DNA of 32,111 nucleotides from a bacterium. GTDB lineage: Bacteria > Hydrothermota > Tepidihabitantia > B3-TA06. This document shows positions 567 to 19,491 of the stretch, piece after piece (positions within the stretch are counted from its first letter, which is position 1; every line of letters starts with the position of its first letter). The translations under genes and the position numbers were made by a program. The notes beneath the pieces are model-generated. The model saw only the letters and a program-made list of their open reading frames with translations. It was not told where the DNA came from and ran no database searches. Where the stretch lies: positions 1 through 32,111 of the forward strand of contig JAAYVC010000091.1 of the NCBI GenBank assembly GCA_012517375.1, in the 5' to 3' direction.

Positions 567-586
567 TTATGCAAGCGGCTTGTTTC

Positions 587-1246: not shown

Positions 1247-1253
1247 GCTATCT

Positions 1254-3218: not shown

Positions 3219-3298
3219 CGAATTCCCCCTTTATAATTTAAGCTTGATTTCTTGCTTATTATTTGATTAGCTTTCATAATATTACTCATCACGAGATG

Positions 3299-3326
3299 AT
3301 TATAGGTAAATTAAATTAATTGTCAA
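3299..3326 (-). promoter_or_regulatory. Consensus promoter of the SDR fusion (TTGACA-16-TATAAT)
   Basis: TTGACA at 3326-3321 and TATAAT at 3304-3299, both perfect, with a 16-base spacer. Start of transcription near 3292 leaves a leader of about 75 bases. A small inverted repeat (TCATC at 3286-3290, GATGA at 3295-3299) overlaps the expected start point and could be an operator. The 261-base gap 3219-3479 is AT-rich and otherwise holds nothing I recognise. Confidence 0.8.
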
Positions 3327-3479
3327 GTTAATTAACTATACATACGCTTTTTCTAAAATAAGTTATGCTTAGATGCAACTTAGATGAATATTACTTTAAC
3401 AACTAATAAGTTAATGGAGTTAATGATTTTTCAATTCTGTCGATGCTTAAAAAACGTAGTGATGAGCAAATTATTGTGG

Positions 3480-4265: not shown

Positions 4266-4315
4266 TATTTCTCCTTTCATTTTACGGGAACCTTAAGACG
4301 CCCAACCCCAAAAGA

Positions 4316-4332
4316 TTGTTTACAGTAAGCAA
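4316..4332. promoter_or_regulatory. 17-base palindrome, candidate operator
   Basis: TTGTTTACAGTAAGCAA is symmetric about its central base except for one position pair. It sits in the 117-base gap upstream of the methyltransferase and downstream of the amidotransferase. The size and symmetry fit a dimeric helix-turn-helix repressor site; no partner regulator is identified. Confidence 0.35.
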
Positions 4333-4382
4333 TCACGCCGATATTTTTAGACTAATCAACAAAACAGAACATGCTCCCGACT

Positions 4383-4985
4383 TCATCGGCAGGAGAGTTG
4401 TTCGACAATTCTATAAAAATTCCTTGCGAAAGGCATTCCTAACTCGCCTGAACGTTCGGGATGAAACTGCGCCCCCCAGAGCGGTCGCTTTTTGTGCCTA
4501 ATTGCCTCCACCTCGCAGGAGGGGGAGGAGGCGAGGACGTCAAAGTGTTCGAGGAGCACGGGGTTTCGGACAACGTGCTCGTAGTGCGACTCGAACCCGT
4601 AGAACGTCTCCCCCATCCCGTCGAGGAACTCGTCTTGTTTAAGGACACACATCTTTTCTATCGTCTGGATGATGGGTTTTGAGATTATAGACGCACCCCA
4701 CGCGAGCGCCAGCGTCTGATGGCCCCAGCAGATGCCAAGGAGCGGTTTTGCGGTTTCACGATACAGACGCAGGAGGGCTTCGGGAACCGGGTTCTTGAGT
4801 ATCTCCCATTCCGAGCCGGTAACGACTATTGCGTCCTGCTCGACGATGGTTGATTCGAGCGCGGCGATGTAGACGTTCGTGACCGCGAAGTGCGGCTCAA
4901 GCCAGTGGATGTAGGGCGCGAGCTTCTCTCGAGACGGTTCGGGGTGTGTTTCTATTAAAAGAACGGAGGGCTTAGAGGAAGTCAT
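4383..4985 (-). CDS. Stand-alone class I glutamine amidotransferase domain protein
   Basis: 200 residues. The nucleophile elbow GICWGHQ holds Cys86, and GAQFHPE holds His175 and Glu177, completing the class I glutaminase triad. The length is that of the GMP-synthase-type amidotransferase domain without its synthetase partner, and no partner gene adjoins it. It could hydrolyse glutamine for a distant synthase or act on another gamma-glutamyl compound. The start is fixed by a TTGATA-16-TAAACT promoter ending 6 bases before the ATG, which implies a leaderless mRNA. This promoter is back to back with the one for the LptA-like gene. Confidence 0.88.
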   Translation of the reverse strand: MTSSKPSVLLIETHPEPSREKLAPYIHWLEPHFAVTNVYIAALESTIVEQDAIVVTGSEWEILKNPVPEALLRLYRETAKPLLGICWGHQTLALAWGASIISKPIIQTIEKMCVLKQDEFLDGMGETFYGFESHYEHVVRNPVLLEHFDVLASSPSCEVEAIRHKKRPLWGAQFHPERSGELGMPFARNFYRIVEQLSCR

Positions 4986-4991
4986 GAAGGA

Positions 4992-5019
4992 AGTTTACGG
5001 ATAAAGTATTCTTTATCAA
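4992..5019 (-). promoter_or_regulatory. Leaderless promoter of the amidotransferase gene
   Basis: TTGATA at 5019-5014, a 16-base spacer, TAAACT at 4997-4992, and 6 bases to the ATG at 4985. Its -35 box lies only 5 bases from the divergent -35 box at 5025-5030. Confidence 0.6.
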
Positions 5020-5024
5020 GTTAC

Positions 5025-5052
5025 TTGACACTATTAACATAAGAAATATACT
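5025..5052 (+). promoter_or_regulatory. Promoter of the LptA-like gene (TTGACA-16-TATACT)
   Basis: TTGACA at 5025-5030 and TATACT at 5047-5052 with a 16-base spacer. The start point near 5059 gives a leader of about 20 bases that includes AAGGAGG. Confidence 0.78.
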
Positions 5053-5078
5053 AGTTTACTTAATGTAAGGAGGATAGT

Positions 5079-5516
5079 GTGAAGAAAACATTATACATAT
5101 CTTTAATGCTTGTCGCTTTTGTCTCATCGGCATCTAATGCTGATTCTATTGATGAGTACACAACTATAACCCTGCATGACCCGGAAATCCTTGATTTCAA
5201 AGCGGACAGCATCGAAATCAATCCAAGCACTAGATGCGTAAATCTCTCAGGCAATGTATCTGTTCTGGCAAAAAGCTTTACTATTTATTCAAATGAACTG
5301 ACTTTCACGATTGGTGATGACTCAATATCTTTCAGTGGAACCATATACATTCCCGATATTTTTGCAACCCGTATAAATGTTCCGGTCGAATGGAGTGCGG
5401 ATTCTTCGATCTTCACCGCTAAAGTCAGGGACTTATCGCTGAACGGCAATGTAGAAATCTGCATCGGAAAATTGAAAGCTACAACCCAGAAGGCAAAAAT
5501 AGTATTAGCGCAATAA
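5079..5516 (+). CDS. Small LptA/OstA-like periplasmic protein
   Basis: 145 residues, starting at GTG with AAGGAGG 5 bases upstream. Residues 1 to about 21 are a signal peptide (MKKTLYISLMLVAFVSSASN). The mature part is beta-rich, with a pattern like the OstA/LptA repeat: FKADSIEINPSTRCVNLSGNV resembles the A-D-x-hydrophobic...G-N-V rhythm of LptA strands, followed by a second unit around YSNELTF and SFSGTI. LptA proper bridges lipopolysaccharide across the periplasm; a related lipid-carrier or envelope role is inferred and not proven. It stands alone as the only plus-strand gene before tldD, with no other lpt gene in the window. It converges on the next gene. Confidence 0.6.
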   Translation: MKKTLYISLMLVAFVSSASNADSIDEYTTITLHDPEILDFKADSIEINPSTRCVNLSGNVSVLAKSFTIYSNELTFTIGDDSISFSGTIYIPDIFATRINVPVEWSADSSIFTAKVRDLSLNGNVEICIGKLKATTQKAKIVLAQ

Positions 5517-5597
5517 TTTGACCTGTAATCCTGAAAGAATTCTTTATGTATAGTAGAGGTTGACTTTAAATTCGGTCAGAAGAATAAGCGTAAGAAC

Positions 5598-5636
5598 GGG
5601 CTGACCGTCCGCTCTTCGAGCGCTTTTGATCAGCCC
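5598..5636. terminator. Composite hairpin between convergent genes, possible terminator
   Basis: Outer arms GGGCTGA (5598-5604) and TCAGCCC (5630-5636) enclose an inner stem CGCTC (5610-5614), loop TTC, GAGCG (5618-5622), followed by CTTTT. The position between two converging genes favours termination in both directions. The T-run is short and inside the outer loop, so termination strength is uncertain. Confidence 0.45.
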
Positions 5637-5658
5637 CTACATTGATTGGGGTATTATT

Positions 5659-6774
5659 TTACAATTTGTTCGCTACCGCTTCGCCCATCTCGAGGGTTGT
5701 TGCTTTGCCGCCCATGTCGTAGGTGCGAACCTTGCCTTCGGCGATGACGGCGGCGATTGCCTTTTCGAGCGCCGTTGCCTTGTCCTTCTCTCCCAGCCAG
5801 TCGAGCATGAGCTTGATGGTGAGGATCATGGCAAGCGGATTGACCTTGTACTGACCCGCGTACTTGGGCGCCGAGCCGTGCGTGGGCTCGAACACTGCAT
5901 ATTTGTCGCCGATATTGGCGGACGCTGCAAAGCCGAGCCCGCCCACGAGTTGGCCGCACAGGTCTGAAATGATGTCGCCGAACATGTTGGATGAGACGAG
6001 CACATCGTAATCAAGCGGATTCTTTAGTAGCCACATGCACATGGCGTCGATGTTGGCCTCCCAGAGGGGGAAGTCCGGGTATTCCTTCGCCATCTTGCGC
6101 GCCTCGCGCACCATGAGACCTGATGTCTCGCGGACGACGTTGGGTTTTTCAACGACGGTAAGAGAACGGCGGCCAAACTTCTTCGCGAACTCGAAGCCTG
6201 AGCGAAGGATACGCTGGCAGCCTTTGCGGGTGAAGAGACGGAGGGAGAGTGCCATGTCTTCGTTGGAGGTGTCCTTAAACTTCTTGGCAGCCGGGTGCGA
6301 ATCGACTGCGGCACGCACGTTATCGGGCACCGGATGCCACTCAATTCCGGCGTAGAGGCATTCGGTGTTCTCGCGGAAGACCACCAGGTCGATCCCTTCC
6401 TTATAGTTGAGGGGGTTGCCCGGATATGCCTTGCAGGGTCGCATATTCGTGTGCAAATCGAAAAGCTGGCGCAGACCGACTATCGGAGAACGGTAAACTA
6501 ACCCTTTTCCCTTAAGCGAGGTATCAAGCTCATCGTCTGCCTCCTGCTTGGGCTTGGATGTTATTGCACCGAACAGACAGCAGTCGGTTGATTTGAGAAG
6601 GTCTATAGTGCGCTGAGGCAGGGGATTGCCCTCCTTGCGCCAGAACTCCCAGCCTATGTCGCCGTATATATATTCTGCGTCGAGTCCGATTTTCTTTAAT
6701 ACAATCATCCCGGCTTCGGTGACATCATTGCCGACGCCGTCGCCCGGGAGCACCGCGATTTTGTATTTAGCCAT
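5659..6774 (-). CDS. Isocitrate/3-isopropylmalate dehydrogenase family enzyme, NADP-type signature
   Basis: 371 residues, the full family length. GDGVG at 11-15 opens the fold. The substrate loop SPIVGLRQ (Ser96, Arg102) with NMRP, RENTE (Arg134) and Tyr141 is present, as are Lys210 and metal ligands Asp267 and Asp271. The cofactor loop THGSAPKY has Lys304 and Tyr305, the residues that select NADP in Escherichia coli isocitrate dehydrogenase; NAD enzymes usually have Asp-Ile there. The second half of the NADP site is less clear because VRTYDMGG looks more like NAD/isopropylmalate members. Oxidative decarboxylation of isocitrate to 2-oxoglutarate is the best guess; isopropylmalate and homoisocitrate remain possible. 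The gene stands alone with its own promoter and an AGGAG ribosome site. Confidence 0.88.
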   Translation of the reverse strand: MAKYKIAVLPGDGVGNDVTEAGMIVLKKIGLDAEYIYGDIGWEFWRKEGNPLPQRTIDLLKSTDCCLFGAITSKPKQEADDELDTSLKGKGLVYRSPIVGLRQLFDLHTNMRPCKAYPGNPLNYKEGIDLVVFRENTECLYAGIEWHPVPDNVRAAVDSHPAAKKFKDTSNEDMALSLRLFTRKGCQRILRSGFEFAKKFGRRSLTVVEKPNVVRETSGLMVREARKMAKEYPDFPLWEANIDAMCMWLLKNPLDYDVLVSSNMFGDIISDLCGQLVGGLGFAASANIGDKYAVFEPTHGSAPKYAGQYKVNPLAMILTIKLMLDWLGEKDKATALEKAIAAVIAEGKVRTYDMGGKATTLEMGEAVANKL

Positions 6775-6858
6775 CGAATCTCCTAGGTTGTATTTCCTTG
6801 GTTTTTATAAAAATGGATTAAACCTTTTAACTTGCCCTTTACCTTATTATTCGCATGT

Positions 6859-6886
6859 ATTATAGTGAAACGATGGTAAGAGTCAA
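6859..6886 (-). promoter_or_regulatory. Promoter of the isocitrate dehydrogenase-family gene (TTGACT-16-TATAAT)
   Basis: TTGACT at 6886-6881 and TATAAT at 6864-6859, spacer 16. The leader to the ATG at 6774 is about 78 bases and holds AGGAG near its end; I saw no strong structure in it. Confidence 0.78.
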
Positions 6887-6908
6887 TCCAGGAAATTTAA
6901 TCTACCGC

Positions 6909-7226
6909 TTACAATACCGTAAACTGCTCCAACTGCCGAAAACTCAACGTACTTGTCAAATCCTTGATAATAGAACTCTGTTCTCTGATCATGCGGCATG
7001 TATTTCTTAAGTTTTCAGATATAGCAAGTTCCTCAAGAACCCTGGAATCAGCAGCATTCAAAGATACTCTTGCCGATGATATTGAATGTTTGATGGAATC
7101 GATGACGGCTCCAATGTGCTTCGATTCACCGGTGAAAGGCGCAGGGTGTGCCGATAAAGCGGTTCTGACTGCGGCGCATACGGTGTGCCCTAGAACCAAA
7201 AGAAGAGAGCAGCCAGTGAGCTTCAC
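6909..7226 (-). CDS. Doubtful small ORF, hypothetical protein
   Basis: 105 codons from a GTG at 7226. The first 20 residues look like a weak signal peptide and the rest is predicted helical. There is no ribosome site or promoter, and the first part overlaps the nucleotidyltransferase relic in another frame, so the real gene, if any, may start later. I recognise no family. Confidence 0.25.
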   Translation of the reverse strand: MKLTGCSLLLVLGHTVCAAVRTALSAHPAPFTGESKHIGAVIDSIKHSISSARVSLNAADSRVLEELAISENLRNTCRMIREQSSIIKDLTSTLSFRQLEQFTVL

Positions 7227-7313
7227 TGCGAGTTAAATAGAACCGTAGATAACGAAAGCGCGCAAATCGTTGCCAAGCTTTTCTCTTATCTCCCCGCAAA
7301 GAGTGAATGCCAT
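7126..7313 (-). pseudogene. Frameshifted relic of a second KNTase-like nucleotidyltransferase
   Basis: An ATG at 7313, preceded by AAAGGG, opens 26 codons ending at 7233. They include CGEIREKLGNDLRAFVIYGS, clearly homologous to the start of the intact neighbour (GQIRDELKK..GDDLRAFVIFAS). Shifting frame at the YGS codons continues as LTRSEAHWLL, which fits the G-S-x-x-R segment of the family, until a stop at 7126. The copy begins 29 bases after the neighbour's stop codon, as if it had once been the next gene of the operon. It lacks the catalytic acidic pair and most of the fold. Confidence 0.6.
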
Positions 7314-7342
7314 GCCGACCCTTTACTCGTAACTGGCTCTTT

Positions 7343-8128
7343 TCATCTTCTGAATATTTTCTTCGGCATCTTGTATACGCCTTCCTTCTCCCATTTGATG
7401 CCCAGTTCGTCCATCCAGTCGAGGATGTTCTGCCATAGTCCGAAAGCTGTTACATACCTTACCTCGACGGGCGCTGAGGTTTCGCCGTGTATTATCTCAA
7501 TAAGTTCTGCGTAATCCTTCGGGAGATTTTCTAGCTTCTTGGATTCTTCCCAGGCGTTGCGCATGCTTGGGTAAAAGTGACGGTTCATAAAACTCATGAG
7601 TTTTACGACCATCACAGAAAAATTGAAAAGATGAGTGCATACATCCGAGCGCACGCCCTTCTCCCAGGCGTTCATTAGAGAGCCTATCTCCTCCTGGATA
7701 GGAAATACTGACAAACCTGCAGCTTTTCTGAATTCCTCTTCCTTGTTGAGAGATTGCCATGCCGCCATCTGAATATGGCCCACGCAGTCATCACCCTGTT
7801 TAACGTATACGGGAAGCATGCGGTGCCACTGGTCGGCGCTGAAAGGCCAGTCCTGGTCTATCTTAGCCGCATCCTTCAAAGCCTTCATGAACGGTATGTA
7901 GTATATCTCGCAGTAAATGCCCTCGCGCATGAACCCGCACGCAGTCTCATCGTAATCGTCGGTCATTATAGCCATCATCTCGAGATCTGAATAAGGTCCA
8001 TCCTCTTCCTTCGCCGTTGACGCAAATATTACGAACGCCCTCAGATCGTCTCCAAGCGATTTCTTTAATTCGTCTCTAATCTGACCGGCCATTAGCAGCC
8101 GGTCCTCGTGCGTCGCCCGTCTCAGCAT
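7343..8128 (-). CDS. Kanamycin nucleotidyltransferase-like protein (KNTase/ANT(4') family)
   Basis: 261 residues, close to the 253-256 of KNTase. Alignment by eye is collinear: GDDLRAF, GPYSDLEMM (catalytic Asp48, Glu50), DWPFSADQWHRMLPVY, and a C-terminal FGLWQNILDWMDELG block match KNTase landmarks. Family enzymes attach a nucleotide to aminoglycosides, but the GS motif reads AS and the following ATP-binding Arg is absent, so activity or substrate may differ. It is the last intact gene of the long operon and overlaps the creatininase gene by 7 bases. An ATG at 8092 is an alternative start. Antibiotic resistance should not be assumed, because the operon is otherwise concerned with the envelope. 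Confidence 0.82.
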   Translation of the reverse strand: MLRRATHEDRLLMAGQIRDELKKSLGDDLRAFVIFASTAKEEDGPYSDLEMMAIMTDDYDETACGFMREGIYCEIYYIPFMKALKDAAKIDQDWPFSADQWHRMLPVYVKQGDDCVGHIQMAAWQSLNKEEEFRKAAGLSVFPIQEEIGSLMNAWEKGVRSDVCTHLFNFSVMVVKLMSFMNRHFYPSMRNAWEESKKLENLPKDYAELIEIIHGETSAPVEVRYVTAFGLWQNILDWMDELGIKWEKEGVYKMPKKIFRR

Positions 8129-8847
8129 TCCCCAAGCTGGTTGAATTCGTTCCAGCCCTCCAGAATCTCTTTTATAAGAAACCTTAATTCGCTTTTGAGG
8201 GATTCGTAGTATGCTTTAGCGGATTCAGGAGTAAGCGGCTTTGCAGGTTCGTCAGAGTATTTTATTGAAGAGCGGGGCGAAGGCCACGATTTGACTCCAT
8301 CGCGATATCTGAATGCCCTCGAACCATCCCAGACCTCCGGTACGATTCGAGGATTCGCCATGTATACGAGCGCAAGCTCGTCGGCTCCTCCGTGCCCGGC
8401 TGCGGAACCGAACCGCTCGTCGGACAGTTCCTTGCCAAACGTCCACCAGTCAAGATATGCGGCCTTCATTCCGTTTTCCTTCCACACTTCCGGGAGAACC
8501 TCAGACAACGTCTGCGTGTTTCCGCCGTGCCCGTTGAAGATGATGACCGATTCCACCCCTGATAATGCAAGAGAGGACAGAAGCTCGAATATGACATCCT
8601 TGTAGGTCTCCTGCGATACCCACATACCGCCGGGGTACCCGGAAAGGGAGGAGACAAGACCGTAGGGAAGAGTGGGCAAAAGAATGGCTTCGAACTCTGC
8701 TGCAAGGTCTGTCGCAAGCTTCTCCGGAGCGATAACGTCCGTGCCGAGAGGACCCTGGTCGTGCGCCTCTATGGTTCCTACAGGCCAGAAGCAAAGACGC
8801 GGTTCGAGTTTTGCATACTCATGAGTCGAAATCTCAAGAAGCTTCAT
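8122..8847 (-). CDS. Creatininase-family metal-dependent amidohydrolase
   Basis: 241 residues. PVGTIEAHDQGPLGTD holds the usual metal ligands Glu27, His29 and Asp37. NGHGGN (105-110) and GHGGADE (151-157, with His152 and Glu157) complete the family signature. Members open cyclic or linear amides: creatinine, formamidopyrimidine intermediates of flavin synthesis, and the mycofactocin peptide (MftE). No mycofactocin or flavin genes are near, so the substrate is unknown. The ATG overlaps the RmuC stop codon, with AAAGGAG upstream, indicating translational coupling. Confidence 0.87.
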   Translation of the reverse strand: MKLLEISTHEYAKLEPRLCFWPVGTIEAHDQGPLGTDVIAPEKLATDLAAEFEAILLPTLPYGLVSSLSGYPGGMWVSQETYKDVIFELLSSLALSGVESVIIFNGHGGNTQTLSEVLPEVWKENGMKAAYLDWWTFGKELSDERFGSAAGHGGADELALVYMANPRIVPEVWDGSRAFRYRDGVKSWPSPRSSIKYSDEPAKPLTPESAKAYYESLKSELRFLIKEILEGWNEFNQLGEC

Positions 8848-9863
8848 AACGGTATCTCCTTTTGTCCCTTTTCGCTTCTTATCTCAAGGGCTTTAATGTT
8901 GTCGCCTATGCGTTCAAGACGCTTGGCTACTTCATCGTACTTCCCCCTTGCGTTCGTAATGTGTTTTCCAACAATCTCCCAGTCCGATTGAGCGGCCTCG
9001 AACTCCCTGGCGATACGGTTGAGGCTATCAAGGATTTGCTGAGCTTCCTTCTCTATGGCAAGACCCCTAAGTCCAAGAAGAATCGTTTCAAGAAACTGGT
9101 AGAACGTAGATGGAGAAACGGGAAATACCCTTGAGCGCCGAAGCGATGTCATGAGATTATCCATTCCGGAGAGTTTAGAGTATATCTTTTCCGATGGTAT
9201 GTACATGAGGGCGAAGTTGGTCGTGTTCTCATTGGGATTGATGTAGCGTTTGACCTCTGTAACGCGCGGTTTTAGTATCTGGATGAAACGCTTCTCAAAA
9301 GCCTCTTCATCTACCCCTTCAGCCGACATCCTCTGGAACTCCTCAAGAGGAAACTTCGCATCTATTGGGATTATCCTGTCTTCGGTTTTAATAACGGCGT
9401 CGACTTTTGTTCCGTCCCTGAATGAGTACTGGAACTCGTAATGAGCCTCAGGGAGAACATCCTTGATAAGATCGTTTAAGAGAATCTCACCGAACCCGCC
9501 TCTTACCTTCGGTGAAAGCAAGAGCTCCTGGAAGGTGGATATCGATTTTCCAATGTCCTGCATGCCTTTTGCCGCCTCCTGCATAGCACCGAGGTCCTTT
9601 CTGATGTCGCCGAATAGGTTTGTAGTGGATTCAAGTCTTTTGTTTATCTCGTGGAGAGTGTCGAGCTGCGCCGGGTTTGAGGCGAGCGTTTCGAGCTTGA
9701 TTAACTTTTCCTTTATTGCTTCCTGTTCAGTCTTTTGTTCCTGCCTTCTCGCCTCCTCCTCCATGCGGCTCTTCTTTTGCGCCGAAAGTATGCCGAGAAG
9801 GACTATAAGAAGAGCGACCGCAAGCGCACCCAGGGCCCCCAATACGGCGTAGATGCCAATCAT
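8844..9863 (-). CDS. rmuC: RmuC-family protein
   Basis: 339 residues from ATG 9863, which overlaps the upstream stop codon in an ATGA junction and has GAGGAG before it; the 12-codon longer frame lacks this logic. Residues 4-26 form one membrane helix, about 30-110 a charged coiled coil, and the rest the RmuC domain, distantly related to restriction-type nucleases. It contains the conserved IDAKFPLEEF segment and YINPNENT followed by MYIPSE. RmuC limits inversion of short inverted repeats in Escherichia coli; the molecular activity is unsettled. It sits in the long operon between DUF362 and creatininase. Confidence 0.9.
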   Translation of the reverse strand: MIGIYAVLGALGALAVALLIVLLGILSAQKKSRMEEEARRQEQKTEQEAIKEKLIKLETLASNPAQLDTLHEINKRLESTTNLFGDIRKDLGAMQEAAKGMQDIGKSISTFQELLLSPKVRGGFGEILLNDLIKDVLPEAHYEFQYSFRDGTKVDAVIKTEDRIIPIDAKFPLEEFQRMSAEGVDEEAFEKRFIQILKPRVTEVKRYINPNENTTNFALMYIPSEKIYSKLSGMDNLMTSLRRSRVFPVSPSTFYQFLETILLGLRGLAIEKEAQQILDSLNRIAREFEAAQSDWEIVGKHITNARGKYDEVAKRLERIGDNIKALEIRSEKGQKEIPL

Positions 9864-11200
9864 ATGCTCCTCCTCAAGGAATGCGTTGCTTGGTTCCATA
9901 CTCGCATAAACTGCTCCTCCAAAAATGCTCTTATGAAAGGCAGGCCTTCCATAACGTCTATATACGGGTTAATGATACGGGCTTTACGGGAAAAAGCAAA
10001 CGCCTTCCTTGCCATGTAGACAGGGCATCCCTTGAGATGGAGCTTCGGTTTTACGCCCTTTGCATGCGTGCAGTCGCCGACGAATATGAGATTATCAATG
10101 ACATCATGCGGAATCTCGCCGTCGTATTCACCGACAACGATGCCGAGCTTACGAGGTCGTTCCTGCGAAGGGTCTTGTCCAAGAAGCCGGAAGAGGGCCT
10201 TTGCGGCAGTATTTACCTTTTCTTTGTTGCGCCAGGCGCGGTAGTGATTTATATAATGTATGGCCTCGGCAACAAAACCAACGCACCCGCCCCTGCATCT
10301 TTTTCCGTTGTAGAGCCTTCCCTCTAAATATTTCATATAGGGATTGAGTTCTGATATAGGCTTTTCATAGTAATAGCCTAAGGGCGCGGGTTTCGCGTTA
10401 TCCGGGTTGATTATCTCTATGTCCCTGAGCGAGACCGGACCCAACCCTCTCTTCGAGGCAAGAACGAGATGCTCTATCTTGCAGGGTTCGAACCCAAGAA
10501 GCCATGCTCCAACGGAGTCTGCGGCGACCGCATTTCTTGAGGCTATGGCAAGCCCTAGATTTCGGGGATCTGGACATCCGACTCCATTGACGCCGACGGT
10601 AATCGCGTCTACAAGAACAAGATCAGGCGGAAAAGCTCTCAGCGCATCAGCTATTTTATTCCCCAGGTCGTAGTGATGGCTTTTAAGCCGAATTGAACGC
10701 TTTATCAAGCCTATGAGGAGTTTGGATGCTCCTGTTATATCCGTTTGCGAATGAACCTTTAACTTTGGAACAAAAACCCTGAGACCGTTACCGGTCAAGA
10801 TTTTGGGTAACGGCAGAAAAGGATGGACCCTGTGGTCAGGAACTTTAAGAAAGCCGTCATGAACCGCCTCTGAAAGATTGAGAAACCTCGTATTTTCTTC
10901 TTTGCAGAGTTTATTGTAGCCCGACTTGCGGTAAACGTAACGCAGAGGAACCATGAGACCGCAGTCTTCGAATATTATCCGTTCCTTTACCCCCCTCTCC
11001 CTTAGTGCGCAGAGCACCCCGCGCATGAACGCAGGGTGAGTATAGGCATGCTCACCATAACGCGTAGCATGCACGAGATTGGGCTTGATGAAACCTTTTT
11101 GCCTTGGTTCTAGCGCGAGTATCTGCATTGCCGACGCGGCGAATTCGCTGATAAGCGCTTGATCGTATCCCGGGATTTTCTTGATTATTACTTTTTCCAT
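9860..11200 (-). CDS. DUF362 family protein with an unusual C-terminal Cys cluster
   Basis: 446 residues. The first about 290 match DUF362: IKPNLV near 38-43, HPAF, LKVHSQTDITGASKLLIGLI around 147-166, and LVLVDAITVGVNGVGCPDP. DUF362 proteins often end in a ferredoxin domain; here that is replaced by a different C-terminal region with Cys302, Cys306, Cys377 and Cys392 (RCRGGC, GDCTHAKG, KGCPVY), spaced so that a folded iron-sulfur or zinc site is possible. The function is unknown. The ATG lies 5 bases after the stop of the prenyl fusion, and the end overlaps rmuC, so it is co-translated with both. A redox link to the neighbouring prenyl reductase is a reasonable but unproven inference. Confidence 0.82.
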   Translation of the reverse strand: MEKVIIKKIPGYDQALISEFAASAMQILALEPRQKGFIKPNLVHATRYGEHAYTHPAFMRGVLCALRERGVKERIIFEDCGLMVPLRYVYRKSGYNKLCKEENTRFLNLSEAVHDGFLKVPDHRVHPFLPLPKILTGNGLRVFVPKLKVHSQTDITGASKLLIGLIKRSIRLKSHHYDLGNKIADALRAFPPDLVLVDAITVGVNGVGCPDPRNLGLAIASRNAVAADSVGAWLLGFEPCKIEHLVLASKRGLGPVSLRDIEIINPDNAKPAPLGYYYEKPISELNPYMKYLEGRLYNGKRCRGGCVGFVAEAIHYINHYRAWRNKEKVNTAAKALFRLLGQDPSQERPRKLGIVVGEYDGEIPHDVIDNLIFVGDCTHAKGVKPKLHLKGCPVYMARKAFAFSRKARIINPYIDVMEGLPFIRAFLEEQFMRVWNQATHSLRRSI

Positions 11201-11205: not shown

Positions 11206-13407
11206 TTATTGATTCTCCTGGCTGACAGCGAATCTTGTCCAGTAACCAAGAACCCTTACAATGTCCTTGAGCTTTTCCAGGAATGGATTCGAAGGAATGA
11301 AGTCTATCGTTTGTAAAGCACGCTCCAAGTACTCTCTCGATAACTTCTGGTTGTAGCCTAGTGCGTCGTAGCGCCTGTACAAATCAAGAATTTCATGGGC
11401 GCTCTCTGTTGTACCAAGTGAAAGCAAATGGAGTAGACGCTTTCTGTCCTCTGAGGAAGCCGAATTCATTGTATGAATGAGCTGAGCGGTCAATTTCCCT
11501 TTTTTTATATCCGTAAAACGGGACTTAAGGCTTACGGTAGACGAAGCCAGCAGATCCTTCGCGTCGTCATATATCTGGAAAGCTATCCCGAGATTCTTGC
11601 CGAACTCCCGCATTGCTTTTACGTTTTCTTGTGATGCATTTGCAAGTATTGCTCCGGCTTCGGTTGCGGCTTCAAGCAAGGCGCCCGTTTTCATTCGAAT
11701 GAGCTCTATGTAATCTTCAAGACTTTTGCTCTCGATTTCTTCCGGAGAGAAATTTATATCCCGAACCTCTCCTTCAGATGCCTCAAGTCCTGAACGGCAT
11801 CCGACTTTTATGAGTTTAATAACCCTCGCCTTGTCTACACCGGCGTTCGCCTCGTAAGAAGACATCATCTCGAAACCTTTTATGAGAAGGGCATCCCCTG
11901 CCGTTATCGCGTGGCCTATCCCGTATCTGCGGTGAAGGGTCTCGGCGCCCCTGCGCCATTCTCCGCCGTCTATTATATCGTCGTGAACGAGCGAAGCGGT
12001 ATGACTTACCTCATAAGCCATGGCAACCGGGAGAAGATCGTTAAGCTCGGCGCCGAGGGCCTGACCTGCGAGAAGAACAAGAACGGCCCTGAGTCTTTTG
12101 CCGCCATGAAGAAGAACCTCATTTGCCATTCTGTGAAGCTCGGAATCTTCTTTGAAGAGTTCCTTTAGCCCCTTGTCGATGAGCTCCTTTTCTTCACGGA
12201 TTATAGAGTCAAGTTCTTCGGCAATAAGACCAAACGAAGCCTCTTCCACAAGCTCATAGGACTTGCGGTGTCCCTCTGTCGACGAAAGAAGTATTCCCAA
12301 CCCTTCCCTTATGGTTGAATCGCTCCTGCCTCTATCAAGAATCCGTTTGACAAGGTTTTCATCCGTCAAGAAAGGCTTAAGACGCAGATCCCAGCGGCGT
12401 TCCCGCTCATTAAAGTAATCATGCACCCTCTCTTCGTACCCGGAAAGAGTTCCAACTTCACCTGAGAAGTACCCTTTTATGGCCTCGGATGCTAATACGG
12501 CTGATTTACGGGCCTGATATATTCCTCCGCCGTGTAATATTGAGCCAACACCTGCCGCATCGCCGACAACAAGAAATCCATCTCCATACAGAGGTCTGCG
12601 GAGCCTCATCGGCATCTTTCCTCCATCCTGCCTGATTACAGATAACCCAGAAAGCCCTAAGCGCTCAAGATTTTCCTTGAGGAAAGCCTCCAACTCATTC
12701 TTAAGGGAGATACGTTTGGCGCGGATGATATCTATCGTCGTCCCCACCCCTGCCACAAGCACATCCTTCTTCGGAAAAAGCCAGAAATATCCTTCGGGTA
12801 CACGGTGAGGGAGAAAGTGAAATTCTATTGAATTTTTGAAAGCCCTATCCAATTTCTCCTGTCCGGCATCAAGCCAGAACTGACAGGTTATTCCCATACC
12901 TTTGTTAGACAAGGGAGTAAGATCCAATCTCGATTCAAGATGCGATGCGTTCGCGCCTGCGGCGTGAATAAGAATGGGCGTCTCTACACCTGTATTACCT
13001 AATGGCGTATCGACTACAACGTTCCATGCCCCTTTATTTCTCAGGATGCTTACGATGCCCGCTTTCTCGATGAACTGAGCGTTCGAAGCCCTGGATTGAA
13101 GCCAGCTGTCGTATGCGGAGCGTTTTACGGTAATTCCAGATTGTTCAGAATGAATTGTGCTGATTGAAAGAAAAGAGCCGTTCGGACCGAATATCCTGGC
13201 TTCCCGGACTTCGCGTTCGATTATCAGGGGTGGAGGAGTACCGAACTCAAGCAGCTCGCCCGTCTGGATGGCTCCGCCGCAAGGCTTCTCTCTATCCAGG
13301 GAAAGCTTTTCCAAAACAACAACACGCAGCCCCGATTCAGAGAGATTGTATGCCGCCTCCGCGCCCGCCGGCCCTGCACCAATAATTACTACATCAGCTC
13401 GAATCAC
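11206..13407 (-). CDS. Geranylgeranyl reductase - polyprenyl diphosphate synthase fusion
   Basis: 733 residues. Residues 1 to about 390 are a geranylgeranyl-reductase-type flavoprotein: GAGPAG (11-16) for FAD, PCGGA (42-46), GYFWLFP (206-212), VVGDAAG (280-286) and HGGGI (292-296). Residues about 395-733 are a trans-prenyl synthase: GGKRLR (435-440), first aspartate motif DDIID (476-480) and second DDAKD (614-618). Both active sites appear complete. The fifth residue before the first motif is Ala (TASLVHDD), with no two-residue insertion, which fits products of C20 or longer. The enzyme may build a prenyl chain and then saturate it. Archaeal-type ether lipids, a quinone tail or a polyprenol carrier are possible ends. 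GTG start overlapping the Yip1 stop. Confidence 0.92.
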   Translation of the reverse strand: MIRADVVIIGAGPAGAEAAYNLSESGLRVVVLEKLSLDREKPCGGAIQTGELLEFGTPPPLIIEREVREARIFGPNGSFLSISTIHSEQSGITVKRSAYDSWLQSRASNAQFIEKAGIVSILRNKGAWNVVVDTPLGNTGVETPILIHAAGANASHLESRLDLTPLSNKGMGITCQFWLDAGQEKLDRAFKNSIEFHFLPHRVPEGYFWLFPKKDVLVAGVGTTIDIIRAKRISLKNELEAFLKENLERLGLSGLSVIRQDGGKMPMRLRRPLYGDGFLVVGDAAGVGSILHGGGIYQARKSAVLASEAIKGYFSGEVGTLSGYEERVHDYFNERERRWDLRLKPFLTDENLVKRILDRGRSDSTIREGLGILLSSTEGHRKSYELVEEASFGLIAEELDSIIREEKELIDKGLKELFKEDSELHRMANEVLLHGGKRLRAVLVLLAGQALGAELNDLLPVAMAYEVSHTASLVHDDIIDGGEWRRGAETLHRRYGIGHAITAGDALLIKGFEMMSSYEANAGVDKARVIKLIKVGCRSGLEASEGEVRDINFSPEEIESKSLEDYIELIRMKTGALLEAATEAGAILANASQENVKAMREFGKNLGIAFQIYDDAKDLLASSTVSLKSRFTDIKKGKLTAQLIHTMNSASSEDRKRLLHLLSLGTTESAHEILDLYRRYDALGYNQKLSREYLERALQTIDFIPSNPFLEKLKDIVRVLGYWTRFAVSQENQ

Positions 13408-14087
13408 CGACCGAAGCCGATATTAATCGCGGCGACGCCCAGAGAAAGAAGGAGCCAAGGAACAATGACAAGCGTAAGGCCTTTCCAGCGCTGGCTTTCG
13501 GTGACTATGGCGAAACCGAATCCCATAAGCAATACCCGCCATAAGGCAAAGAAATCAATCTGTGATGCGAATCGGAAAAGGAAGGTGCCTCTTTCAAGAA
13601 AAGGAAGAAGACCAAGTGAAGTCATGATGTCTACCCTCTGAAGGATAATACTGAGCGCCGAGATAAACAGTAATCCGAGTGCCGTTACAAGCCCGGTGTA
13701 TGCAACTACCGAGATGGATTTCTTAAAGCTGCTTTTTCCGCCAAAAAGGGAAAACAATACCCAGAACACAAGAGCCGATAGAAAAGTTATTATTGTCTGA
13801 AGAAGCATTACAGAAACAGCCGTACCTATTATGGCTATAGGAGAATTCATCCTCTCAACAATCATTTGCATTTGTTCTTCCTGCATTTCGACGCCCTGAG
13901 GAAGGTTCTGCCTTATAGTATCAAGAAATACGTCCGGAGGTATTATAAGCCTGGGCAGCACGGATGCAGCTGCCGCGACAACGAGGAGTATCAAGAACGG
14001 CAGCCACCAGCGTGATTTTTCTTTTATGTCTTCAAAGCATCGTGAAGGCGATACGAAAACTGAAATAAGACGTTTTCCTTCGTTCAT
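13404..14087 (-). CDS. Yip1-family multi-pass membrane protein
   Basis: 227 residues with about five membrane helices (near 28-48, 84-110, 124-150, 175-195, 204-224). The cytoplasmic start FVSPSRCFEDIKEKSRWWLPF is the typical opening of bacterial Yip1-domain proteins. Their function in bacteria is not established. GGAGG lies 4 bases before the ATG, which overlaps the regulator's stop, and the end overlaps the prenyl fusion, so the three genes are tightly coupled. Confidence 0.8.
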   Translation of the reverse strand: MNEGKRLISVFVSPSRCFEDIKEKSRWWLPFLILLVVAAAASVLPRLIIPPDVFLDTIRQNLPQGVEMQEEQMQMIVERMNSPIAIIGTAVSVMLLQTIITFLSALVFWVLFSLFGGKSSFKKSISVVAYTGLVTALGLLFISALSIILQRVDIMTSLGLLPFLERGTFLFRFASQIDFFALWRVLLMGFGFAIVTESQRWKGLTLVIVPWLLLSLGVAAINIGFGR

Positions 14088-15625
14088 GAATCCTCCTTTT
14101 CGAATCCGAGTTCCTTCTTCAATCTCGAGAGATAACTTGGCTGAATTCCGAGCATCTCTGCGGCTTTTTTATGATTGCCGCGGGTCTCTTTAAGTATATG
14201 CGTTAAATATTCCTTCTTGAAGTGCAGAACCGCATCCAGCCAGGGCTTTGGCTCTGCGAAAAGATCCACCCTTTCCGACTGAGGTCCTTTGCCGATTACG
14301 ATGTCGCCCTTGCTTATATGCGTACTCCTGGAGAGGACGAAAGCACGCTCAATTACGTTTCTAAGCTCTCTGACGTTGCCGGGCCAGTCGTACTCCTCAA
14401 GTAATTCCAGGGCTTCCTTATCTAGCTTGTCTATTCCCTTCGTTGTCTCGGCATTGAAAAGCCTGATGAAATGCTCAGCCAGAAGCTTAATATCGCTTTT
14501 GCGTTCCCTGAGATGCGGAAGCTCGACCGGAAAAACATTTATTCTGTAATAAAGATCCTCCCGGAATTTTTTTTCCCTGATAAGGTTGGGAATATTCTGG
14601 TTTGTGGCCGTAATGACTCGAACATCGACCGAGATAGTCTCCTTTCCGCCGAGACGTTCAAACTCCTTCTGTTCGAAAAACCTCAGAAGTTTGACCTGCG
14701 TCTCAAGACCCAAATCTCCTATCTCATCGAGAAATAATGAACCCTTGTGCGCCTGTTCGAACTTGCCTTCCTTGCGAACGGACGCTCCGGTAAAAGCACC
14801 CTTTTCGTAGCCGAACAACTCGCTTTCAATGAGAGTGGTTGGAATTGCCGCGCAGTTCACTACAACGAACGGTCCCTCACTGCGGGGACTGTTGAGGTGT
14901 ATGAATCGCGCAAGAAGCTCTTTGCCTGTTCCGCTTTCTCCGGTAATGATTACGGTCGTATTCGAAGCGGCTACGCGTTTAGAGAGATCAAGAGCTTCGA
15001 GAAGTTTAGGGTCGCGACCTATTATCCTGTATCTTAACTCCTGCGCTTCTTCTATAACGCGTTTCGAAGCCTGAAGCTCCATGTAGTTCTGAGCATTCCG
15101 CAGCACCTGGGCGGCCTGGCCTGCGAGAAGTTCTAAAAGCGTCACGTCTTCATCGGTAAAATCAGCTCTCGATTCCTTGTTAAGAACCTCGATAACGCCG
15201 ACCGTTTTGTCCTCAAGCCTCAAAGGAACGCCAAGTATTGAACGGGTCTGGAAAGAAGTGGCTTCGTCAGTACCCGAGTACCACCGGCCATCCTTTTTAA
15301 CATCATTCACCACAAGGGGCTCGCCTTTAAGAAAAACGTAACCCGCAATGCTTTCCTCACCCAGGGGAACGTAAAGCGAAACAAGGGATTCCTTAGCCTC
15401 GCCCGTCGCTATCGCAAAACGCAGCTTGTTTACCTTTTCGTCTAAAAGAAGCAGCGATGAAGCCTCGGACTGAGTCAGGGATTTTGCGGATTCCAGAATA
15501 ATCTCAAGCAGACGGTCAAACTCAATTGTCGAAAGAAGCTTACCGGTAACATCAACGAGACGTCTGAGCTCCTCAAGACCTATTGCCGCTGCCTTTGACG
15601 TTTCCTTAGAGCCTTTTTTCGACAT
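14084..15625 (-). CDS. Sigma-54-dependent activator with GAF sensor domain
   Basis: 513 residues in the order GAF (about 20-180), AAA+ (about 203-430) and Fis-type helix-turn-helix (about 480-506). Walker A is GESGTGKE (229-236), the sigma-54-contacting loop GAFTGA is intact (276-281), Walker B is FLDEIG (298-303), and NHKKAAEMLGIQPSYLSRLKK forms the DNA-binding helices. It should open sigma-54 promoters in response to a small molecule or redox signal bound by GAF. No kinase or receiver domain is present. No -24/-12 promoter was recognised by eye in the window, so its targets may be elsewhere. It overlaps surA by 20 bases, with AAAGGA before its ATG. Confidence 0.93.
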   Translation of the reverse strand: MSKKGSKETSKAAAIGLEELRRLVDVTGKLLSTIEFDRLLEIILESAKSLTQSEASSLLLLDEKVNKLRFAIATGEAKESLVSLYVPLGEESIAGYVFLKGEPLVVNDVKKDGRWYSGTDEATSFQTRSILGVPLRLEDKTVGVIEVLNKESRADFTDEDVTLLELLAGQAAQVLRNAQNYMELQASKRVIEEAQELRYRIIGRDPKLLEALDLSKRVAASNTTVIITGESGTGKELLARFIHLNSPRSEGPFVVVNCAAIPTTLIESELFGYEKGAFTGASVRKEGKFEQAHKGSLFLDEIGDLGLETQVKLLRFFEQKEFERLGGKETISVDVRVITATNQNIPNLIREKKFREDLYYRINVFPVELPHLRERKSDIKLLAEHFIRLFNAETTKGIDKLDKEALELLEEYDWPGNVRELRNVIERAFVLSRSTHISKGDIVIGKGPQSERVDLFAEPKPWLDAVLHFKKEYLTHILKETRGNHKKAAEMLGIQPSYLSRLKKELGFEKEDS

Positions 15626-16853
15626 AGAAATCCTTTCTTGCTTCCGATACTATATCCTCCACCCACTCCTCCTGTTTCTGGGAAGCAAGAAAATTCCTTA
15701 TCATGGACTGCACCTCTTCGAACGAAAGCGTACGCTCGTTCTTCTTATCCTTTGCGTATACGAGGTAGACGCCTATGTCGGAGACGAACGGCCCGCTGAT
15801 TTGTCCGGAGTCTATGGAGGCAACAACGCTGTCGAAAGGCGGTTGCAGCACTGAAAGCGGGATTCTTCCTATAAACCCGCCGTTCTTTATGGTAGTCGAA
15901 TCCTCGGAGTAGCGCCCTACGGCCTCCTCGAACGTAAGTTTACCGGAGACGATTTCCGATCTTATTTCATCAGCTTTCGATATGACCCTTAATGTATCGC
16001 TTCTTAATACACGGGCCTTAAAAAGCATGTGTCTTGCATATACCTTGTTGCCCGAACGCTTTTCTACAATGAAAAGATGATACCCCTGACGCGACTGAGC
16101 AGGGGTAATCCTGTCCACAGGAATACTGAATAAAACCGTATCTATCTCAGGGTATAAATCCCCCCGTTTCACCCAGCCCAGCAAGCCTCCGTTAGCACTT
16201 GTTGCCGGATCCTCTGAAAAGGAGGCGGCGACTACGTCAAATTCACCGCCCCTGGAGAGGATGTCGTAGACTTCATTTATTTTCCTTGTTACTCTTGCCT
16301 GTTCGGACTGGGAAGGCGTTATGCCCATTGCGATATAGGAAAGATCAATATAACCGGGAACCTTAGCCAGAGAGTCTTTGTGGAGATCGTAAAACTCCTT
16401 TATCTCGTTCGGAGATACATAAGGCTCGGTTTTTCCCTGAAGCATTAGCATCTGCTGAATAGTCGCCTCAAATCTCGCCTGATTCATTAGAACTGACCGG
16501 AGTCTGTCGCGGGTCAGCCCCATTTTTTCAATTTCTTTTGCCTCCTCGGGCAGAGTATCCAGCTGGGAAAAAAACTTTTCAATTTGGGCGTCTACCCTTT
16601 CTGCAATTGCATCGCGATCGACCTGAATCGTAGTATCCTGAGCGGCCTTTTTGAAGACTAATTTCTGGGCAATGAGACGATCAAGAAGCACCGTTTTCAA
16701 TGAATCCTTGAGGGAATCAGGAACCTGGCCCTCAAGCTGGGCCAGGTTCAACATCATCACTACATCGCTTTCAAGTATGGGATCCTTGTCAACGATTGCT
16801 ACCACGCGATCTGCAGTGCTAGCAAGAAGCCAGAAGGCCAGAAAAAAAACCAC
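15606..16853 (-). CDS. surA: SurA-like periplasmic chaperone with two parvulin domains
   Basis: 415 residues from GTG 16853, which has AGGAG 4 bases upstream and follows the previous stop by 7 bases; a longer ATG frame (16892) would overlap the neighbour by 32 bases and bury the signal peptide. The start VVFFLAFWLLASTADRVVA is a signal peptide. An N-terminal SurA-like helical region (AIVDKDPILESDV..., about 18-150) is followed by two PpiC domains with ...FSEDPATSANGGLLGWV and ...YSEDSTTIKNGGFIGRI. SurA escorts outer-membrane proteins across the periplasm. It is third of three consecutive prolyl isomerases in the operon. Confidence 0.9.
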   Translation of the reverse strand: MVFFLAFWLLASTADRVVAIVDKDPILESDVVMMLNLAQLEGQVPDSLKDSLKTVLLDRLIAQKLVFKKAAQDTTIQVDRDAIAERVDAQIEKFFSQLDTLPEEAKEIEKMGLTRDRLRSVLMNQARFEATIQQMLMLQGKTEPYVSPNEIKEFYDLHKDSLAKVPGYIDLSYIAMGITPSQSEQARVTRKINEVYDILSRGGEFDVVAASFSEDPATSANGGLLGWVKRGDLYPEIDTVLFSIPVDRITPAQSRQGYHLFIVEKRSGNKVYARHMLFKARVLRSDTLRVISKADEIRSEIVSGKLTFEEAVGRYSEDSTTIKNGGFIGRIPLSVLQPPFDSVVASIDSGQISGPFVSDIGVYLVYAKDKKNERTLSFEEVQSMIRNFLASQKQEEWVEDIVSEARKDFYVEKRL

Positions 16854-16860
16854 AAATCTC

Positions 16861-17772
16861 CTAGTAAAGGATATTGTCCATGCGGATCTCAATATCCTTC
16901 TGCGCGGCAGTTTTCAAGGAATCAAGCTTGCGGGCAATGATCTGCTGTGAACGCTCATATAGAATCATGGTGTTCAGATAACCGGCAACATCGCTGAAGA
17001 CCACGCTCTTCCTTGTCTTTTGCTTATCTTCAAGCTTGAATATCATTGTTAATCCAGCTGGATCGGCGCTGAGCGGTTCGGTGAACTGGCCAGGCTTCAA
17101 TGCGAATATCGCGTCCTCCATCTGGAGCGTAAAGAAGCCTGAACCCCTGGGGATGAAATTAGAGGGCTGACCTTTAAGGGAATCCAGCGTGTACTGTTCG
17201 GCAAGTTTTCTGAAATCAGCGCCCTGCTTCAGCTGCTGATAGATATTCTGGGCGCTGATGGGATCGGCAACAATGATTTGCGATATTTTTACCTCGTAGG
17301 TAAACTCGTCTTTGTGGGCATTGAAGTAATTCTCGAGTTCGGACTGGGAAATTGTAATCTTTTTTGCCTCATCCTCAAGCCATGCCTGTGAAAGAAGCCT
17401 TTTCCGGCTCATATCATATGCAAACTCGAGCTGATCAAGCGCCATCTTGATGGTATCTTTTTTATCGAGTCCTGTCTTCTTAGCCTGCTGGTAGACAACC
17501 TCTTGTTCGACCCAGAGGTTGATTACTTCCATAGGATCGACCTGCGCCTGCTGTGCACGAGGCACGTAAAGTGCAAGAAGACTCTTGTACTCATCAAGGG
17601 TAAGCTTGGATGAACCGACCCTTGCAACTACTTTTGAACCCGCTTCGTTATTTTTTGAACCGGATCCTGAGAATATATTCTCCACAAAAGGCGGGTTCCA
17701 TACAAGAAGTACACCTACGGCTACGACTATAACCGCGCCCACAATTATCCACGGAAGCCATTTCTTTTTCAT
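16861..17772 (-). CDS. Membrane-anchored parvulin-type prolyl isomerase
   Basis: 303 residues. Residues 5-25 form a single N-terminal membrane helix after KKKW, with the rest outside. The region after VARVGSSKLTLDEY is the SurA/PrsA-type N-terminal helical chaperone domain, and about 165-265 is a degenerate PpiC domain (KISQIIVAD..., FRKLAEQYTLDS, GSGFFTLQMEDAIFALKPGQF). It resembles PpiD/PrsA in layout. Its stop codon overlaps the ribosome site of surA. It is probably a folding factor held at the inner membrane. Confidence 0.85.
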   Translation of the reverse strand: MKKKWLPWIIVGAVIVVAVGVLLVWNPPFVENIFSGSGSKNNEAGSKVVARVGSSKLTLDEYKSLLALYVPRAQQAQVDPMEVINLWVEQEVVYQQAKKTGLDKKDTIKMALDQLEFAYDMSRKRLLSQAWLEDEAKKITISQSELENYFNAHKDEFTYEVKISQIIVADPISAQNIYQQLKQGADFRKLAEQYTLDSLKGQPSNFIPRGSGFFTLQMEDAIFALKPGQFTEPLSADPAGLTMIFKLEDKQKTRKSVVFSDVAGYLNTMILYERSQQIIARKLDSLKTAAQKDIEIRMDNILY

Positions 17773-17808
17773 AAAGGTTTATCTCCTAGATTATTTAAAA
17801 ACCGGCAC

Positions 17809-19458
17809 TTATCCTTGCACGCGGTTTTTCTGAGACTTAGGTTCCTCTTTTATCTTTCCTATGCTCATAAGAAGTTTTTTGTCCTGGGTAACCGTTATCT
17901 TACCCCTAAGCTCATTAAGAAATTCAGTCTTGCGTTCGGATTCCTTCTCGCCTCGCAACTTTCTTTCAAGACGCTGTTTTTCTTCTTCATACTTGCGGAC
18001 TGAGGAAGGCTGAATATCAAGCACCTTAACGATTCCGAATCCGTTGTAAACCTCAAAAGGTCTCGAATACTGTCCCTTAGGAATCTTGAAAGCCTGCTCC
18101 GTGAAGGGTCTGAATGAAACATCGTTAGCTGCTCGGAAACCTATTGCACCGCCTCTTGAAGCCGACTGATGATCCGAGTACTTTGCTGCGACTTCATCGA
18201 ATGTTTTACCTTGGCTGAGAAAAGCATACGCTTGCTGGATATCGCTGTAAGAAGACGTCCGGATTATCGATATGTTGCGTCTTTCAGGAACCTGGAATTC
18301 GTCCGGATGAGAATCGTAATAGGCTTTAGTCTCTTCTTCTGTTACACTTACTTTGTTTGTTACTTCCTCTTTGTAAAGACGCTCAATCATCTTAGAGTCA
18401 ACGAAACCAGACACAGCCTCGCTGACGCTTTTTTCCTTATCCAAATGTCTTCTTTCTGCAGCATGGATAAGAGCGGGAAATTGAGCTCTTCGTTCGGCAA
18501 TACGCTGGATATATTCCTGAGGAACGCCTTCGGGGAACTGGGAATAAAGGCCAAGCATCGAACCAATGCTATCTATTACTTTGCCGTCAACCTTAATAGT
18601 CCAAATATTGAGTTCCTTGTCGGTAAGCGAATCCTGAGGTTTGCTTAAGAGAGCAAGTCCTGTACTGTTATACTCTATGTTGGATTCCTTAAGCAACCTT
18701 TCAAGGCTCTCCTGGCTCAACTTGGACTGCTTAAGCATCTCCACCCGCTGTTTAATAAGCGGTTCCTGCTCCTTGGTTAAGGGTTCGGGATTCTCCTTCT
18801 TTGTTCTTTTAACCAGATAAAATATGTCGTAACCGCCAATCTGGCTCTTGATGGGTTTCGTGGCCTGACCATCCTTCAGCTTTGCCAGCTGATCGAAGGG
18901 GTCTCTTGCAAAGAAATTCGAGAGCGGAATGGTGCCTATGTTTCCGCCGTTTCGAGACGATGGGTCGGATGAATATCTTGCAGCAAGAGTGTCAAAGGGT
19001 ACACCCTTGGCTAAATCCGATAAAACCATGCTGGCTAAGGTATCCGAATCCGTATGTATCACCCTGAGTTCAAGAAGCTCCTGATCTGCGTCGTAGAATT
19101 TCTTGATTTCCATCCTGGAAGCTTTGGATTTATCAACTACCTCTCTGGTGTAAAGGGCATTGATCATCGCTTCTTTTTTGACGTCTTCAATGACAGCTTT
19201 TATTGAAGAATCTTCGGCGAAACCTCGGCTTCTTGCCTCCGATATCATTAGCTTGTCATCAACCATCTTATCTAGAATGCGTTGCTTAGCCTCAAGTTCG
19301 GCCTCTTCTGTTGGGTATAGTTTGGGGACGTAGACGGCCAAAAAATCCTTGACTCTTATCGTCTCTTCTCCCACGCGTGCAAGTACGCGTTCATCCTCTT
19401 TGCCGCAGGCAACCAGCGCGGCAAGGATTAAAAGAATAAGAAATGCAGTTTTTTTCAT
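17809..19458 (-). CDS. Lipoprotein parvulin-type prolyl isomerase, first gene of the operon
   Basis: 549 residues from ATG 19458. The start MKKTAFLILLILAALVAC is a lipoprotein signal with Cys18. Two PpiC modules are visible, one around the AARYSSDPSSRNGGNIGTIPL block and a second around AAKYSDHQSASRGGAIGFR, each with a SurA-like helical segment before it. The long open frame extends 11 codons further upstream, but those codons cover the -10 box of a TTGACA-16-TATACT promoter whose end lies 5 bases before this ATG, so the shorter start is right and the mRNA is leaderless. With the next two genes it makes a trio of extracytoplasmic folding factors. Confidence 0.9.
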   Translation of the reverse strand: MKKTAFLILLILAALVACGKEDERVLARVGEETIRVKDFLAVYVPKLYPTEEAELEAKQRILDKMVDDKLMISEARSRGFAEDSSIKAVIEDVKKEAMINALYTREVVDKSKASRMEIKKFYDADQELLELRVIHTDSDTLASMVLSDLAKGVPFDTLAARYSSDPSSRNGGNIGTIPLSNFFARDPFDQLAKLKDGQATKPIKSQIGGYDIFYLVKRTKKENPEPLTKEQEPLIKQRVEMLKQSKLSQESLERLLKESNIEYNSTGLALLSKPQDSLTDKELNIWTIKVDGKVIDSIGSMLGLYSQFPEGVPQEYIQRIAERRAQFPALIHAAERRHLDKEKSVSEAVSGFVDSKMIERLYKEEVTNKVSVTEEETKAYYDSHPDEFQVPERRNISIIRTSSYSDIQQAYAFLSQGKTFDEVAAKYSDHQSASRGGAIGFRAANDVSFRPFTEQAFKIPKGQYSRPFEVYNGFGIVKVLDIQPSSVRKYEEEKQRLERKLRGEKESERKTEFLNELRGKITVTQDKKLLMSIGKIKEEPKSQKNRVQG

Positions 19459-19463
19459 GCAGA

Positions 19464-19491
19464 AGTATAACCTTACCGACCTCATTGTCAA
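19464..19491 (-). promoter_or_regulatory. Leaderless promoter of the long operon
   Basis: TTGACA at 19491-19486, spacer 16, TATACT at 19469-19464, then 5 bases to the ATG at 19458. It faces away from the tldD promoter at 19554-19581. Confidence 0.8.

Follow-up and report, generated by a model that had tools for sequence, protein, structure and literature searches.

A geranylgeranyl reductase–polyprenyl diphosphate synthase fusion in Stahlbacteria and DPANN archaea, with a predicted role in making and partly saturating prenyl chains

The fusion gene and its surroundings

The window analysed here is the whole 32,111-nucleotide stretch of contig JAAYVC010000091.1. On its minus strand, a single open reading frame (positions 11206–13407; GTG start at 13407, stop codon at 11206–11208) encodes a 733-residue protein that joins a geranylgeranyl reductase (GGR) to a polyprenyl diphosphate synthase. 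The initial annotation had placed this frame correctly without giving its strand, and the motifs that it listed do all lie in one frame and in the order described: GAGPAG, PCGGA, GYFWLFP and VVGDAAG, followed by GGKRLR, DDIID and DDAKD.

The N-terminal FAD domain (residues 1–345; 12373–13407, minus strand, as for all features of the protein) is a member of the geranylgeranyl reductase family by profile score and motifs. It matches TIGR02032 (GG-red-SF, NCBIfam) with 171.7 bits against a cut-off of 158.8 over the first ~345 residues, and PF22578 (GGR_cat, Pfam) with 28.6 against a cut-off of 27. It carries Cys43 (13279–13281), the counterpart of the redox Cys47/Cys45 of characterized GGRs, the YFWLFP stretch (residues 207–212; 12772–12789) that starts the YxWxFPx7-8GxG substrate motif, and a GGG motif (residues 293–295; 12523–12531). 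The C-terminal half (residues 396–733; 11209–12222) belongs to the all-trans polyprenyl diphosphate synthase family, as indicated by PF00348 (polyprenyl_synt, Pfam; 201.7 bits against a cut-off of 27, residues 423–676), GGKRxR, KT and both DDxxD motifs, namely DDIID (residues 476–480; 11968–11982) and DDAKD (residues 614–618; 11554–11568). The two enzymes are separated by a helical junction (residues 346–395; 12223–12372), in and around which helices were modelled at residues 320–348, 350–360, 364–375 and 380–402.

The AlphaFold2 model of the fusion, built from a 12-row alignment, is confident (mean pLDDT 88.4, pTM 0.83): each half is predicted to adopt a fold that matches the one expected of its family, with a helical stretch connecting them. 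When the model was compared with solved structures using Foldseek, the best match of the reductase half was the Thermoplasma acidophilum GGR 3oz2 (TM(target) 0.82, 22% identity in the structural alignment). The synthase half matched the Escherichia coli octaprenyl synthase 5ze6 (TM(target) 0.88) and 1wy0 (TM(target) 0.85, 33% identity), the latter also being its nearest solved sequence (phmmer E value of 2.8e-51). None of the 50 best Foldseek matches listed is a structure that spans both halves.

The fusion gene sits in a closely packed run of minus-strand genes. Its start overlaps by 4 bases a gene for a Yip1-domain membrane protein (13404–14087; PF04893), a similar gene lying directly upstream in relatives. 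Beyond this are a GAF/sigma-54 activator with an AAA+ domain and a Fis-type helix-turn-helix (14084–15625) and, upstream of the activator, three PPIC/SurA-like genes in tandem (15606–19491). On the other side, a DUF362 gene (9860–11200; PF04015) starts 5 bases past the fusion stop and is followed, again closely, by an RmuC-family gene (8844–9899; PF02646). The Yip1–fusion–DUF362 order is kept in family members with readable flanks; in some genomes there is a gap or an unrelated contig end. In G008, a genome from another family of the same order, an orthologous-looking activator lies directly upstream of the fusion, and a PPIC gene is also retained upstream. On that contig (C151; locus L044, about positions 1–9400) the fusion is directly upstream of mraZ and an apparent dcw wall-synthesis cluster, whose genes beyond mraZ were named by reading, with no profile.

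Archaeal contigs offer other neighbours: a HIT-domain gene on L078 and, by reading, on L054, hydrogenase-like genes on L080 (also by reading), and a cis-prenyltransferase-family gene 3.8 kb downstream of the fusion on L054. The last of these (L054:6848–7531) has MGGQ where UppS has MDGN, together with an RRG end, which we take to suggest a non-catalytic, NgBR-like subunit. No acceptor enzyme is genetically linked to the fusion across lineages, and promoter and terminator scans gave results at chance level. The initial annotation had read the operon as pointing to the envelope. This holds in so far as the conserved, closely packed genes have an envelope flavour and a dcw-like cluster follows the fusion in G008, but contexts differ between lineages, and for that reason the neighbourhoods lean only weakly towards the envelope and carrier lipids.

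Two observations on other genes of the window can be added. Seven cysteines of the DUF362 protein, among them C302, C306, C377 and C392, do not vary across an alignment of ten orthologue sequences, which includes repeats from the same genome, and may form a metal or Fe–S site; that this protein carries electrons to the reductase half is a guess. Elsewhere, positions 1431–3218 hold a single open reading frame of 595 amino acids that combines an NAD-dependent epimerase with a short-chain dehydrogenase (PF01370 and PF00106).

Conservation and spread of the fusion

The genome from which the window comes (G000; 2.54 Mb, 96.9% complete, 125 contigs) has one copy of the fusion. Full-length counterparts with 66–71% identity occur in 7/7 other sampled genomes of its family (8/8 when G000 is counted), and G008 encodes another at 37% identity. 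These nine are the only carriers among the 147 genomes of the phylum that were examined (eight in one family plus G008), and all are WOR-3/Candidatus Stahlbacteria. A scan of named genomes added two full-length fusions, one from an uncultured proteobacterium metagenome-assembled genome (MAG; 34% identity) and one from a Nanoarchaeota archaeon (37%). The MAG is the sole carrier among 200 genomes around it, whereas the fusion is present in four of 288 genomes around the archaeon, the other three copies being 63, 63 and 46% identical to the first over the probe. We found no viral carriage of the fusion; a structural search of viral proteins returned matches to single halves only.

Because the source genome is fragmented into 125 contigs, an assembly chimera of two genes had to be considered; it is ruled out by uninterrupted, full-length orthologues across independent assemblies. 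With copies in the family, a sister family, one proteobacterial MAG and four DPANN genomes, the fusion is neither an artefact of the junction nor unique to one genome, the two outcomes that the initial annotation had named as fatal to its reading. Mis-binning is likewise an unlikely origin of the archaeal copy, because three further archaeal genomes carry fusions that are 46–63% identical to it.

We aligned 13 fusions from Bacteria and Archaea, including stahlbacterial, proteobacterial and DPANN members. Both DDxxD motifs of the synthase half are invariant, as are RRG, Lys573-Thr574 and Gln611, and we take these to be the residues that are functional in prenyl synthases. The GGK loop is less constant: its two glycines vary in G008 and in the DPANN and proteobacterial members, and its lysine is replaced by arginine in G008. 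In the reductase half, GxGPxG, Cys43, Tyr207/Trp209/Phe211/Pro212, the GxG that follows (completing YxWxFPx7GxG in 13/13 fusions) and the GD motif are invariant, and the GGG motif is present in 12 of the 13, with AGG in one (G355). The junction aligns across all of the fusions, at a lower identity of 20–32% to members from outside the family. The role of the cysteine and the YxWxFPx7-8GxG motif have been described for GGRs (PMC6309074; for the motif, also PMC4244643). As these residues of both halves are invariant in 13 bacterial and archaeal fusions, both catalytic sites appear to have been under selection while fused. The initial annotation had proposed a single polypeptide that makes and then saturates prenyl chains, and with both active sites conserved, this chemistry is the natural reading of the protein.

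The 13 fusion proteins cluster together in a tree of the synthase half (support 99/98) and in a tree of the reductase half (90/92), in each case against few standalone homologues; sampling of standalone proteins is thin in both trees, and several branches are long. These groupings fit a fusion that arose once and was later transferred between Bacteria and Archaea. Bacterial-type isoprenoid pathways have already been described in DPANN archaea (PMC8204110).

Chain length and fate of the predicted product

The residues five and four positions before the first DDxxD motif are Ala-Ser in 13/13 fusions (Ala471-Ser472 in the window protein). Among archaeal GGPP synthases, 1wy0 has Tyr at position −5 and 5jfq has Phe, and one or other of these two residues is found in 11 of the 12 standalone WOR-3 synthases examined; Ala occupies this position in E. 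coli octaprenyl synthase and in chains labelled hexaprenyl or decaprenyl synthase in their depositions. Altering the −5 Phe of the Sulfolobus acidocaldarius GGPP synthase leads to C30–C50 products (PMC4244643). The product of the fusion is therefore probably longer than C20, a C20 product being doubtful because the −5 residue is the non-aromatic Ala, although this one residue is not decisive for product length. Taken as a whole, the sequence of this half most resembles archaeal short-chain types (IdsA/GGPP synthases). The fusion reaches none of the NCBIfam equivalogs for chain length, falling below the long-chain cut-offs (HepT, 153.7 against 456.55; solanesyl, 149.2 against 383.2; octaprenyl, 130.9 against 412) and below the short-chain ones as well.

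The genome of the window also encodes a GGR separate from the fusion and, adjoining dxs and folD (identities assigned by reading), a separate IspA-like short-chain synthase; the fusion is thus an added branch of isoprenoid metabolism. It also has the cis-prenyltransferase UppS alongside two UbiA-family genes, neither of which comes near the DGGGPS equivalog cut-off, and UbiA genes occur in every stahlbacterial fusion genome. One UbiA prenyltransferase of G000 is itself fused to IspH (HMBPP reductase) in a protein of 579 amino acids (L039:4748–6487, contig C47). UbiA matches in open frames of 580–626 amino acids in at least six other genomes of the family suggest the same architecture, making IspH–UbiA a second isoprenoid gene fusion of this clade. 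In G008, a genome without a detected GGGP synthase, there is a four-base overlap between a standalone GGR gene and a UbiA gene (L040:1684–3716, contig C179).

We favour, with about even confidence, a bifunctional enzyme that would make a medium- or long-chain polyprenyl diphosphate and then partly saturate it, for a lipid or carrier that is neither an ether lipid nor menaquinone. The C-terminal half would extend an allylic primer with IPP into an all-trans polyprenyl diphosphate, its length probably exceeding C20; the primer itself is probably supplied by the separate IspA-like synthase encoded next to dxs. Some of the isolated double bonds of the chain would then be hydrogenated by the FAD reductase of the N-terminal half, as in GGRs and mycobacterial HepR. 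The partly saturated chain would end up in a lipid whose synthesis depends on UbiA, in a polyprenol carrier or as free polyisoprenoids in the membrane, and would serve neither ether phospholipids of the archaeal type nor, in Stahlbacteria, menaquinone. Prenyl diphosphates are reduced by GGRs in vitro (PMC6309074), and the GGR paralogue HepR of Mycolicibacterium vanbaalenii is described as reducing heptaprenyl diphosphates at their omega and E units (PMC10821996). Direct hand-over of the chain from synthase to reductase is plausible given the fusion and its fixed domain order, a fusion in itself being no proof of channelling, and a saturated polyprenol carrier is among the better candidates for the end use. 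We infer each of these four elements: the activities, the chain length above C20, the direct hand-over and the end use.

The two activities may instead be co-located and uncoupled. The synthase would then release its product for attachment to an acceptor by a UbiA enzyme, and only the finished lipid would later be saturated by the tethered reductase, with the fusion serving only to co-regulate or co-localize the two. Action on finished lipids is common among archaeal GGRs, UbiA genes accompany every stahlbacterial fusion, and the overlap of a separate GGR gene with a UbiA gene in G008 makes reduction of UbiA products likely in the clade. However, the UbiA-linked GGR of G008 is a different, unfused gene, and we saw no UbiA gene adjoining the fusion in any locus that was read; we regard uncoupled action as rather unlikely. 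A C20 route, in which GGPP would be converted to phytyl diphosphate or to dihydro- or tetrahydro-GGPP for a UbiA enzyme, would suit the sequence proximity of the synthase half to archaeal IdsA/GGPP synthases and the substrate for which GGRs are best known. The uniform Ala-Ser at −5/−4, where GGPP synthases have an aromatic residue at −5, and the separate short-chain synthase already in the genome argue against this route, which we consider improbable.

Two end uses with clear precedents fare worse. Saturated archaeal-type ether phospholipids, suggested in the initial annotation, would require GGGP and DGGGP synthases to link the chains to G1P. As the initial annotation noted, FCB bacteria with archaeal-type ether-lipid genes have been reported (PMC7852524). 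GGGP synthase (PF01884), a key gene of that pathway, is widespread in the phylum (89 of 147 genomes) but missing from the families with the fusion: it was undetected in 9/9 stahlbacterial fusion genomes, of which six reach 90% completeness or more, and in the DPANN representative (G147) and the proteobacterial MAG (G148) only fragments below the cut-off were found. The mutual exclusion of fusion and GGGP synthase has a Fisher P value of 1.5e-4, which is not independent evidence because the nine fusion genomes come from two related families. With GGGP synthase missing from the fusion genomes, ether lipids made by the archaeal route are an extremely unlikely end use. A partly saturated menaquinone or other respiratory quinone would have a parallel in mycobacterial MenJ, which saturates menaquinone side chains, and long all-trans chains are typical of quinones. 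The Archaeoglobus fulgidus GGR paralogue AF_PR also saturates menaquinone side chains (PMC10821996). Yet none of the nine stahlbacterial fusion genomes has MenD or PF02621 (MqnA/MqnD) and the known menaquinone routes are therefore missing, so that we reject menaquinone by either known route in Stahlbacteria and consider quinones in general very unlikely, while leaving room for a novel quinone route or for quinones in the proteobacterial host.

Taken furthest, the bifunctional reading would have a single fused enzyme, exchanged between Bacteria and DPANN archaea, channel a growing all-trans polyprenyl diphosphate of at least C25 from its synthase half to its reductase half. The saturated polyisoprenoid thus defined would be a lipid or glycan carrier distinct from ether lipids, quinones and the known dolichols. 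We put this forward tentatively.

Relation to known enzymes and implications

Both halves of the protein belong to known families, and its architecture is the new element. With the GGR family (TIGR02032; arCOG00570; Ta0516, 3oz2; S. acidocaldarius GGR, 3atq) the fusion has in common the FAD fold, the redox Cys, YxWxFPx7-8GxG and GGG, but it is joined to a prenyl synthase and is only 22% identical to 3oz2. HepR, likened here by description, offers the nearest biochemical parallel for the saturation of a prenyl diphosphate of greater length, although it acts on chains of mixed Z,E configuration, unlike the all-trans chain predicted for the fusion. Long-chain all-trans synthases (E. coli 5ze6; solanesyl synthase OsSPS3) share both DDxxD motifs with the fusion, and the E. 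coli enzyme also has Ala at −5, but they are without a reductase domain and serve quinones. Archaeal GGPP synthase/IdsA enzymes (Pyrococcus horikoshii 1wy0; NF040698) are nearest by sequence to the synthase half; in contrast to the fusion, they have an aromatic residue at −5, a C20 product and no reductase domain. The archaeal-lipid genes of the FCB lineage Candidatus Cloacimonetes (GGGPS, DGGGPS, polyprenyl synthases and GGRs) are enzymes of the same kinds in bacteria; we found no mention of a fusion in that report, and the GGGPS present there is missing from the fusion genomes (PMC7852524). A search of open-access full texts, including papers on GGRs, FCB lipids and DPANN archaea, found no published description of the fusion; a listing of this domain architecture may already exist in subscription journals or annotation databases.

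Most GGR paralogues remain uncharacterized (PMC10821996). Whereas isoprenoid saturation is usually assigned to free-standing GGRs, the fusion names a likely partner reaction. That bacteria with the fusion lack a detected GGGP synthase means that prenyl synthase and GGR genes in FCB-type genomes need not imply archaeal-type membranes, a caution for genome-based claims on the lipid divide. The sharing of the fusion between bacteria and DPANN archaea adds a further case of isoprenoid genes that cross between domains.
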